The notes beneath the pieces were generated by a model, which saw only the letters and a list, made by a program, of their open reading frames with translations, ran no database searches and was not told the DNA's origin. A stretch of DNA of 64,000 bases, taken from the NCBI RefSeq assembly GCF_031312535.1, contig NZ_CP133594.1, forward strand, positions 2,399,934 to 2,463,933, given 5' to 3'. This document shows, piece after piece, positions 28,924-33,336 of this stretch; within the stretch, counting starts at the first letter, position 1; each line of letters begins with the position of its first letter. Made by a program: the position numbers and the translations under genes. Source of the DNA: Methanolobus mangrovi (lineage in GTDB: Archaea; Halobacteriota; Methanosarcinia; Methanosarcinales; Methanosarcinaceae).

Positions 28924-30306
28924 TCATATTTTCATTAACTGGGTAGCGATAGTTGAATTAAGTTTCTGGATGAATTCTTCTTTTTTACCGAATGGAACTG
29001 TTGCTCCTGCTGCAATATCGTGGCCACCGCCTGCTCCTCCGAGTTCCTGGCAAACGATGCTCAGGGCCTCTGCAAGGTTAAGTCCTCTGTTGACAAGTTC
29101 CTGTGTTCCTCTTGCAGATATTTTGTAACCATCGTCCTTGTCTGCAAATGCTATGATGGGTAGTTTACGGTTGCCTGCGGAGTAGTGACTCATTCCTGCA
29201 ACAATGCCTACTATGGTTTCGGGGATTACACTTCCTGCATCGAAATACTGGAGGTTTGAAAGTTCGGTGATGCCATTGTCCCTGACAAAGTTCAGTCCAT
29301 CAACAAGATTCTTGCGATGGTTTTGCAGAAGGTCCTGTGCTTCTCTATAAGCATCGTCACGATCTCCCATGCACACCTGCATTCCAACTTCAGCTTTCAT
29401 GTATCTGCCCGTGGCATTGAGAAGTGTGGAATACTCTGATGCATCCCTCATCTCAGTACCTTCCTGTTCTGTACGGAGTATATAATTCTCTGATACCAGT
29501 CTTCCTATGTTGTATGATGACATGCCGTTTTGCATGGAATACTGCAGGAGGGATGATGTAACTTTCATTTTTTCTTCTTCAGAGAGGTCTATCCATCTTC
29601 TCCACTTCTCGTCATTTGAGAACTGAAGGCCGACCCTTGCAAGAAAATCAACGCATGCATCCTCATTGCCGGTGAGTCCTGGAATGAAAGGGTCAGATGA
29701 ATACTGTATCATCTTGTATACTGGACGTGTCTGTTTTCCAAAAAGCGAGATGTCTTTTTTAGCATTTATTACGTCAGGATTTGCTTCGAGTATCATCCTG
29801 TTAAGGCTTACAAGCTTCCCATGCTTACGATTTTGCATGTCGCCAACACATCCTACGATTGCAAGGTCTGCAAGGTCACGGTTGTTCCCTAGCTGGGATG
29901 CAAGTATAAATGTTGTTCCTGAACCGCTTATTTCGTAAGAGCCGTTTGCTCCGAAAAGATGAGGGTTCAGGTGTAATTTGGACTCTCCCTGCGGTCGGTG
30001 ATGGTCTGAAACAATGGAATGTACTCCGTAATTGTTGATATGTTCCAGTTGCCCGCTTCCAAGGTCGGTGAATATCGTGAGTTCCGGATTCATATCTGCA
30101 ATCTTCTCCACGATAGCTTCGTCAAGTTGCTTTACAAACATCATCTCAGAGCCGATACCTGCTCTTTCCAGGGCTTTTGAAATAATGGCAGCTGATGTGA
30201 TTCCATCTGCATCGATATGTGATACTAATTGTATCTCATCGTATTTTTTAATCTCTTCAGCGCATTCCCGGGCATGCTTTGCCATCATGGCCATGGTTTC
30301 AGACAT
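28924..30306 (-). CDS. DHH-family phosphoesterase, archaeal RecJ-like
   Basis: The 460-aa protein has the DHH domain motifs VSHIDADGITSAAII near residue 28, IFTDLGSGQ and VSDHHRPQGES, and a DHHA1 domain at the C-terminus with ELGGAGGGHDIAAGATVP. Archaeal RecJ homologues act as single-strand nucleases; GAN is linked to the CMG helicase through GINS. Whether this is the GAN or the RNase-type homologue cannot be told here. The next gene upstream on the same strand (12-nt gap) is a Holliday-junction-resolvase-like nuclease, pointing to recombination or repair. Confidence 0.85.
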   Translation of the reverse strand: MSETMAMMAKHARECAEEIKKYDEIQLVSHIDADGITSAAIISKALERAGIGSEMMFVKQLDEAIVEKIADMNPELTIFTDLGSGQLEHINNYGVHSIVSDHHRPQGESKLHLNPHLFGANGSYEISGSGTTFILASQLGNNRDLADLAIVGCVGDMQNRKHGKLVSLNRMILEANPDVINAKKDISLFGKQTRPVYKMIQYSSDPFIPGLTGNEDACVDFLARVGLQFSNDEKWRRWIDLSEEEKMKVTSSLLQYSMQNGMSSYNIGRLVSENYILRTEQEGTEMRDASEYSTLLNATGRYMKAEVGMQVCMGDRDDAYREAQDLLQNHRKNLVDGLNFVRDNGITELSNLQYFDAGSVIPETIVGIVAGMSHYSAGNRKLPIIAFADKDDGYKISARGTQELVNRGLNLAEALSIVCQELGGAGGGHDIAAGATVPFGKKEEFIQKLNSTIATQLMKI

Positions 30307-30318
30307 GTTATGATCCTC

Positions 30319-30816
30319 TTATTCTATTAACCTGGATTTTTTCCATCCTTTCGGATCGATCAGGTATTTATTGCTCGCTCTTTCTATTTTGGGGAAGGTC
30401 TGTATTTCTTCCACGGTTATCTTTGGAGTCCCTTCTTCATTGTATTTGCTGCAAAGTTCTGTCCAGGGGATTATGTATGCTTCCCGTGCGCGCCCAACTC
30501 CCATTTTCAATTCAACTGCAAGAAATCCGGTTCTTCCTGCTCTCATCAGAAAGTCCGATATTCTTTCTATCTGGTGGGCACCATTCTTATCAGTTGTGAA
30601 ATGTTGCGTAAAATAAAGTGCTTTTGCACCCTTGTCTACAGAAATGCTCTTGCATTCTATTCCCATGTAATAATCAGGGTCAAGCGAATCAACAAGTACA
30701 TCAAGGAACTGTGATGTGAATCTGTGTTGTTTGAGGCGATAAGCGATTCCCTTCATTTTATTCTCTTCGAAGAAGGCGTTGAATGACTGGACAAGTACTC
30801 TTTCAAATTCTGTCAT
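30319..30816 (-). CDS. Hjc-like PD-(D/E)XK nuclease
   Basis: The protein is about 165 aa from ATG 30816; a TTG at 30852 would add 12 residues of low plausibility. It has the PD-(D/E)XK pattern of archaeal Holliday junction resolvases: Glu in MTEFERVL, Asp in SQFLDVLVDS and the E-x-K of YMGIECKSISV, followed by GAHQIERISDFLMRAGRTGF. It is longer than typical Hjc (about 120-130 aa) and its N-terminal basic loop differs, so it may be a relative rather than Hjc itself. Probable operon with the RecJ-like gene. Confidence 0.68.
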   Translation of the reverse strand: MTEFERVLVQSFNAFFEENKMKGIAYRLKQHRFTSQFLDVLVDSLDPDYYMGIECKSISVDKGAKALYFTQHFTTDKNGAHQIERISDFLMRAGRTGFLAVELKMGVGRAREAYIIPWTELCSKYNEEGTPKITVEEIQTFPKIERASNKYLIDPKGWKKSRLIE

Positions 30817-30900
30817 TGGATAATCCCGTTTTTTGAATAATATTATTTTCAAGGTTATATTAAATATTGCTTTGGATATGCTATGTAAATCGTTAGATTG

Positions 30901-31110
30901 ATGTACCTGTTAACTCAATTAGCAGTAATGAATAAGAAGAATATGGAAATTGTAGCTTCAGTAGGTTCCGTAGTATTGTTGATCCTGCTTTTTGCCGTGG
31001 CACATCAGATGAGAAATTCATTTCCACAGGAATATGGATTTATTGGTTCGCTTGTGGTATTCATAATTGCCATATCCGTGGTCGGTCTGAAGTTGAATGA
31101 AATGCAGTGA
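30901..31110 (+). CDS. Small membrane protein with two TM helices
   Basis: The protein has 69 aa from ATG 30901; another ATG at 30928 would give 60 aa starting MNKKNMEIVA. Two hydrophobic helices (VASVGSVVLLILLFAVAH and GFIGSLVVFIIAISVVGL) are joined by RNSFPQEY. Function is unknown. It is divergent from the Hjc-like gene; the AT-rich stretch at 30850-30870 can hold both promoters. There is no clear Shine-Dalgarno site for either start. Confidence 0.5.
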   Translation: MYLLTQLAVMNKKNMEIVASVGSVVLLILLFAVAHQMRNSFPQEYGFIGSLVVFIIAISVVGLKLNEMQ

Positions 31111-31124
31111 GGTTTATTTTTCCG

Positions 31125-31528
31125 ATGTCAGTGTTCGGTACTGAGTTCAGTCTGGAAACGTCTGGATATACAGATGTGTCGGATATAACTCTTCAGGTCT
31201 CAGGGCTGCGCATCATCTGGTCTTGGTGATGATATCGTGCTTGTATATGTATCTGGTTCAACTGCCGCAAAACAACCATTGAATTTGAACCTGGTCTTGT
31301 ACGTGACCTGAAAGTAGCATTAGAACGGCTGACGCCGAAAGATACTATTTATTTTGATAATGAACGGTGATATGGGGTAATGGGCATTATCCTATTCGGG
31401 AATCTTTTTTAGGGCAAAGTGAATAGTTCCCACTTATCGCTGATGGTATTCTGCTTTGTACTCAGCAGCAGATGCAGGTGGATTATGGCAATTGTCCACA
31501 TTCTAGAAAAGTTACTATTCAGGTTTAA
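31125..31528 (+). pseudogene. yjbQ: Decayed yjbQ / UPF0047 gene
   Basis: Reading across three frames gives almost the whole UPF0047 (YjbQ) protein. It begins ATG at 31125 with FGTEFSLETSGYTDVSDI and LQVSG, continues in another frame with SGLGDDIVLVYVSGSTAAKQ, then TIEFEPGLVRDLKVALERL and PKDTIYFDNER, then WGNGHYPIRESFLGQSE, a stop, and FPLIADGILLC, QMQVDYGNCPH, RKVTIQV before TAA at 31526-31528. At least three frameshifts and one internal stop (around 31426) are needed. Intact members of the family have been linked to thiamine phosphate synthase activity. The gene is dead here unless a second copy exists elsewhere. Confidence 0.85.
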
Positions 31529-31587
31529 GGTGAATAAAATTCTGGAAGAGAAAGGGTTTCCGGCTTAAAGCCGGACATTATTTGTTT

Positions 31588-32529: not shown

Positions 32530-33336
32530 GTGTTTCCGAAACTGTTGCCAAAAATGAGAGTAAAAAATGATGTAAAAGTAATTTATATTCTCTTTGGTAT
32601 CGTTTTGACCTATTTTTCAATCTACATGCCTGATTTTATGAATGTAGCAGGTATGGAGGGTACAAAGATAAGTTCTATTGTCTCTTTTGGAGCACTGAAT
32701 GGTATGCTCTTTGGTCCATTCTGGGGTTCCATTGTATCAGCAGCAGGCTTTCTTTTGTATGAGGTCACAAGTGGCAAATATCTTTCAATGAGTATGTTTT
32801 CAGTACTATCAATTTTATTCATAGCCCTGAGTTCAATAGTTTCAGGTCTTGTTGTTAACAGGGAACATAAGGCTGCAAAAAGCATATTTTTTGCACTCAT
32901 AGTTGTATGGTACATGCTTGATGTGGGAAGAACAGCTTATTCCTACCCGTGGTATCATTTGCTGGTACTTGGCATTTTTATATATTTTGAGAAATCTATT
33001 TTGGTGAAGACCGTTACTTCTAAAGCATATATATTCATATCTCTGTTTTTGGCTTCTCTGATGGGTGTTCTGTCCGATCATATGGCAGGAAGTATTACAT
33101 ATTATCTATTATACGACCTCCATGCGGATATGTATCAGTCAGTTGTTCTTCTTTATCCTGTGGAGAGGACAATACTTGCGTTTTTCCCTGCGTTTCTGGT
33201 CTATGTATTGATCGTTGTATTCAAAGACATAATACTTTCATCAGGAAATATTGAAAAAGATATTGAGGACAAAAAGTCCAGGGACCTGGATGAATATCTT
33301 CAAAATGATGTATTGAATATCATAAAAGAGCAATAA
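32530..33336 (+). CDS. ECF-type substrate-binding-like membrane protein
   Basis: The 268-aa protein has about seven hydrophobic helices. The segment ISSIVSFGALNGMLFGPFWG, with an S/G-rich loop after a short amphipathic stretch, recalls the S components of ECF vitamin transporters (ligand-binding membrane proteins). No ECF ATPase or T subunit is nearby, so it may use a shared energising module or work alone. The C-terminus is a charged tail (EKDIEDKKSRDLDEYL). Start is probably GTG 32530, set by the TATA spacing; ATG 32554 is the alternative. Confidence 0.55.
   Translation: MFPKLLPKMRVKNDVKVIYILFGIVLTYFSIYMPDFMNVAGMEGTKISSIVSFGALNGMLFGPFWGSIVSAAGFLLYEVTSGKYLSMSMFSVLSILFIALSSIVSGLVVNREHKAAKSIFFALIVVWYMLDVGRTAYSYPWYHLLVLGIFIYFEKSILVKTVTSKAYIFISLFLASLMGVLSDHMAGSITYYLLYDLHADMYQSVVLLYPVERTILAFFPAFLVYVLIVVFKDIILSSGNIEKDIEDKKSRDLDEYLQNDVLNIIKEQ

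Follow-up and report, generated by a model that had tools for sequence, protein, structure and literature searches.

Positions 31125-31537 (forward strand) of the window, the whole 64,000-nucleotide stretch of Methanolobus mangrovi DNA analyzed here, almost certainly hold a dead gene, which by its sequence appears to be an ordinary pseudogene of a dispensable UPF0047 (YjbQ) paralogue of the B subfamily (yjbQ-B). The window's own genome is labelled G000 and the compared relatives G002-G024 and so on. Frameshift-tolerant protein-to-DNA alignment to intact orthologues (references G002, G018, G024 and G016) recovered the whole protein at window positions 31107/31125-31534, from the conserved ATG at 31125 to an ancestral stop at 31535-31537; the longer start of the G002 and G018 genes would map to 31107. 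The relic scored 356 against the G002-B protein, compared with a maximum of 43 for 40 dinucleotide shuffles of the stretch, and 78 against the paralogue A protein. At the DNA level it was 74% similar to the G002 locus (461-base query, E = 1.8e-76), and at 93 of the 141 aligned codons the encoded residue agreed with that of G002. The original prediction of a full-length yjbQ (UPF0047) gene broken by frameshifts was thus borne out, as was its start, but its end at 31528 fell short of the ancestral stop. A whole-genome search gave no PF01894 profile match at E ≤ 0.001 for the relic, copy A being the sole match, and no open reading frame (ORF) of 60 amino acids is left between the neighboring genes.

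All lesions were placed on the forward strand. Three frame breaks were located by frameshift-tolerant alignment, at 31209, 31270-31271 and, inside the His-rich motif, 31368-31369, each position being good to a few bases. By translation, the frame opened at ATG 31125 is closed after 34 codons by a TGA at 31227-31229. In the ancestral frame, the alignment placed a TAG at 31424-31426 and a TAA at 31526-31528, three codons upstream of the ancestral stop, and one codon was lost relative to the orthologues at 31472 (31463 if aligned to G024). The TAG is ambiguous: the pyrrolysyl-tRNA synthetase profile (PylS) was above its curated cut-off in 27/27 genus genomes, including that of the window, so UAG is possibly read as pyrrolysine and this codon alone proves nothing. 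The death of the gene is decided instead by the frame breaks, the TAA, the TGA and the codon pattern. The predicted shifts (at least three) were recovered as three, but the single predicted stop became two ancestral-frame stops, of which the TAG is not firm.

For the codon pattern, a base was scored as private if absent from all 11 intact relatives in the comparison, and only lesion-free codons were counted. Private changes at codon positions 1/2/3 numbered 18/21/14 in the window copy and 16/13/11 in the relic of G014, while position 3 held the most private changes in each of the 11 intact relatives. Codons whose relative-invariant residue had changed amounted to 20/76 in G000 and 19/75 in G014, against 0-5 of 77-82 in each intact relative. 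The relic has lost 9 of the 28 residues invariant in 36/36 B-subfamily rows, among them H85, W89, D91, H97 and W121 (G002 numbering). The pN/pS of yjbQ-B between G000 and G002 was 0.38, compared with 0.15-0.20 for intact pairs. These figures indicate that protein constraint on the window copy is gone and that codon selection is relaxed. Substitutions and indels fall regardless of codon position and the genes flanking the relic are open, which agrees with the prediction of real decay and not one sequencing error.

Gene order around the locus is kept genus-wide as DHH gene, 165-aa gene, small ORF, yjbQ-B and DUF1699. In the window, a DHH/DHHA1 protein gene (28924-30306, reverse strand; placed by synteny and Pfam) is the next left marker, followed by a conserved 165-aa gene with no Pfam family (30319-30816, reverse strand; 26/27 genus genomes), which served as the left synteny marker. 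An intact 70-aa ORF with no Pfam family (30898-31110, forward strand) lies just upstream of the relic and adjoins yjbQ-B in relatives; a motif scan located it in 19/27 yjbQ-B loci. The right synteny marker is a DUF1699 gene (PF08004; 31588-31983, reverse strand; 27/27 genus genomes). Inspection of the syntenic place in sister species, suggested as a check, showed yjbQ-B open beside DUF1699 in 21/27 genus genomes (window genome counted). In G014 and G008 it was broken by lesions unlike those of G000, all lesions of the three being private; in G011 it was reduced to a 21-residue trace, and in G003 nothing recognizable of it was found at the syntenic place. The G013 locus is cut by a contig end and was left out of the loss counts, leaving 26 assessable genomes.

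In a B tree that included the relics, the window copy was sister to intact G002-B with moderate support (83/79), on an end branch of 0.33 vs. 0.12. A species tree from ELP3 and UvrC paired the same genomes (100/100 at all codon positions, 99/96 at positions 1+2). Synonymous divergence between them was 0.75 for yjbQ-B, 0.84 for ELP3 and 0.83 for UvrC, which argues for the same old, vertically inherited locus. Since its sister G002 has an intact B, the window copy was inactivated after the split from G002. Its death is probably not very old, as the relic is alignable end to end and matches G002 at the codons counted above, but it need not be very recent, at about 0.33 changes per column on the G000 branch. 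The predicted recent loss was accordingly right in its placement on the G000 branch, and less so in how recent it had to be.

On the protein species tree, at least 5 changes were needed for B and at least 6 for A (26 genomes, without G013), counts that rest on a tree whose deep forks near G000 were left open. The DNA tree, with 19 of the 27 genomes chosen by the analyst, gave a minimum of 2 changes for B, as G002 sits inside the broken group. That minimum needs a regain in G002, and with private lesions in G000, G014 and G008 we infer separate deaths of B in these three despite it. Constraining genomes with a broken or eroded B to one clade gave p-AU = 0.0014 (all positions) and 0.0024 (positions 1+2) for G000+G008+G014, 0.0004 and 0.0069 for G000+G008+G014+G011, and 0.066 and 0.0085 for G000+G008. 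Selection on B would have relaxed in this species group, presumably because its function is dispensable or because paralogue A or ThiE/ThiN covers part of it. Separate lineages would then have fixed knock-out mutations of their own, and dead B would drift towards deletion, with G008 partly erased, G011 at a trace and G003 gone. In frame breaks, stops, relaxed codons, syntenic intact orthologues and graded erosion in sisters, the locus is like ordinary prokaryotic pseudogenes of dispensable paralogues and shows no essential difference from them; what stands out is the number of independent hits on a two-gene set within one genus.

The search for an intact copy elsewhere in the genome, also proposed beforehand, found copy A at G000:C1:663120-663461, intact but of a different subfamily. 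In the family tree, A and B formed the two sides of one branch (SH-aLRT 99; 35 + 36 rows), each side also containing sequences of further families in the order, although the alignment was short and some branches were long. Alignment column 136, in the H-T-T segment, was His in 35/35 A rows and Gly in 36/36 B rows; the His, which we take to be a metal or active-site residue, was present in 5/5 solved homologues examined in the alignment (9 matched). An N-E-N motif (N50/N52 of A) occurred only in A across the 71-protein alignment, and an extra Trp occurred in 36/36 B rows and only there. By these sequence signatures A and B are best read as ancient, order-wide separate paralogues. Replacement of the broken gene by another copy, which had been offered as one cause of the loss, did not survive this comparison: copy A belongs to an old separate subfamily found beside B across the order, and was already present. 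Intact G002-B is like the UPF0047/YjbQ family in full length and in exceeding both cut-offs (PF01894, 116.7 vs. 27 bits; TIGR00149, 98.6 vs. 67.75 bits); the difference is that the window copy is broken, and that the B subfamily has Gly for His and is without N-E-N. Both subfamilies match the same NCBIfam name despite the signature split. A UPF0047 match was also recorded in Methanosarcina acetivorans, a genetically tractable species of the order.

Copy A has itself been lost repeatedly. It was missing beside its HIT-family neighbor in 6/26 assessable genomes (loci G002 L168, G006 L172, G010 L188, G015 L183, G020 L180 and G003 L184), although its absence is less sure in G010 and G020, which are fragmented and 93% complete. 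No remnant of A was found at the six loci, the best scores (25-36) not being above those of the B shuffles (up to 43). Across the 26 genomes (without G013), both copies were present in 16, only A in 4 (G000, G008, G011, G014), only B in 5 (G002, G006, G010, G015, G020) and neither in 1 (G003). Double loss was not avoided (1 seen; with 6 + 5 losses among the 26 genomes, ~1.15 would be expected; Fisher p = 1.0). The losses of A and B being independent across the genus, the double-loss pattern does not support A covering for B.

An unlikely alternative to simple dispensability is that A and B became interchangeable in this Methanolobus group and were lost reciprocally, each lineage retaining just one. 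None of G000, G002, G008, G011 and G014, which the all-position tree places together (91/95), carries both copies, four having only A and G002 only B. This absence of both-copy genomes around G000 is one suggestive point, seen post hoc, in a grouping that positions 1+2 do not resolve. G003 is without either copy, the genus-wide independence of the losses speaks against reciprocity, and A and B are unlike at their signature residues. The stronger statement that this group needs exactly one UPF0047 protein, with A (His-type) and B (Gly-type) interchangeable there, is a little more doubtful still. If true, such interchangeability would make UPF0047 function testable via mutual complementation.

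It is very improbable that B was lost once in the ancestor of the group and later regained by G002. A single loss followed by a single regain would match the two-change minimum of the 19-row species tree, but each of G000, G014 and G008 carries private lesions only, the G000-G002 dS of B is similar to the values for ELP3 and UvrC, and the trees of B and of the species are in agreement.

There is next to no chance that the breaks are sequencing or assembly errors in an intact gene: the relic is known from one assembly of the strain, and single-base frame breaks are the commonest type of sequencing error, but a few indel errors are insufficient to give 39 private changes at positions 1 + 2 and the loss of 9/28 invariant residues, between open flanks in a single-contig genome (2.62 Mb, 100% complete). 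A working recoded gene, with programmed frameshifts and pyrrolysine at the TAG, is just as hard to credit: PylS in the window genome deprives the TAG of weight as proof of death and recoding is known in archaea (PMC8211752), but the abstract of that paper mentions a single reported archaeal case of programmed -1 frameshifting, and the gene has three separate frame breaks, TAA and TGA stops, a flat codon-position pattern, lost invariant residues and intact relatives without need of recoding. The pseudogene reading of 31125-31537 is thus preferred.

The NCBIfam name for the family is 'secondary thiamine-phosphate synthase enzyme YjbQ' (TIGR00149). In the available parts of two papers, YjbQ is treated as able to condense thiamin precursors (PMC5613172; PMC3091646), the second citing Morett et al. 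2008 for the rescue of a thiE mutant; in those of a third, its function is entered as unknown (PMC7954711). The family name would make B a weak, secondary thiamin-phosphate synthase, but its role may differ because B is without the His kept by every A row. ThiE (PF02581) was above cut-off in 27/27 genus genomes, and ThiN (PF10120) was found in 22/27, including G000, and missing in 5/27; loss of B alone should therefore not end thiamin synthesis. With ThiE in every genome, thiamin synthesis gives no simple explanation of the B loss, and no link was found between losses of B and of ThiN (1/5 vs. 3/21, p = 1.0). ThiN was missing in 3/6 A-less vs. 1/20 A-bearing genomes (without G013; Fisher p = 0.028), a post hoc comparison uncorrected for kinship or number of tests. 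A search of the YjbQ/UPF0047, Methanolobus and archaeal pseudogene literature, at the level of titles and abstract openings, found nothing on this locus.

By itself, the relic is one more archaeal pseudogene, and the repeated A/B losses are its only unusual point. Independent A, B or double losses across the genus form a natural series in which to seek the function of UPF0047. For annotators, 'thiamine-phosphate synthase' should not be transferred to the B subfamily untested, since it lacks a residue invariant in A.

Several observations were made on the surrounding genes. The 70-aa ORF upstream of the relic is hydrophobic-looking and remains open in the window though yjbQ-B is dead. DUF1699 matched 2 to 6 times in each of the 27 genus genomes, and a few of the matches contain internal stops (G011:C55, G010:C55, G021:C79). 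A 268-aa, hydrophobic-looking ORF without a Pfam match lies at 32530-33336, and many relatives have a similar ORF in the corresponding position. The window also encodes an NrpR-domain protein that shares 96% identity with its counterpart in M. vulcani PL 12/M.
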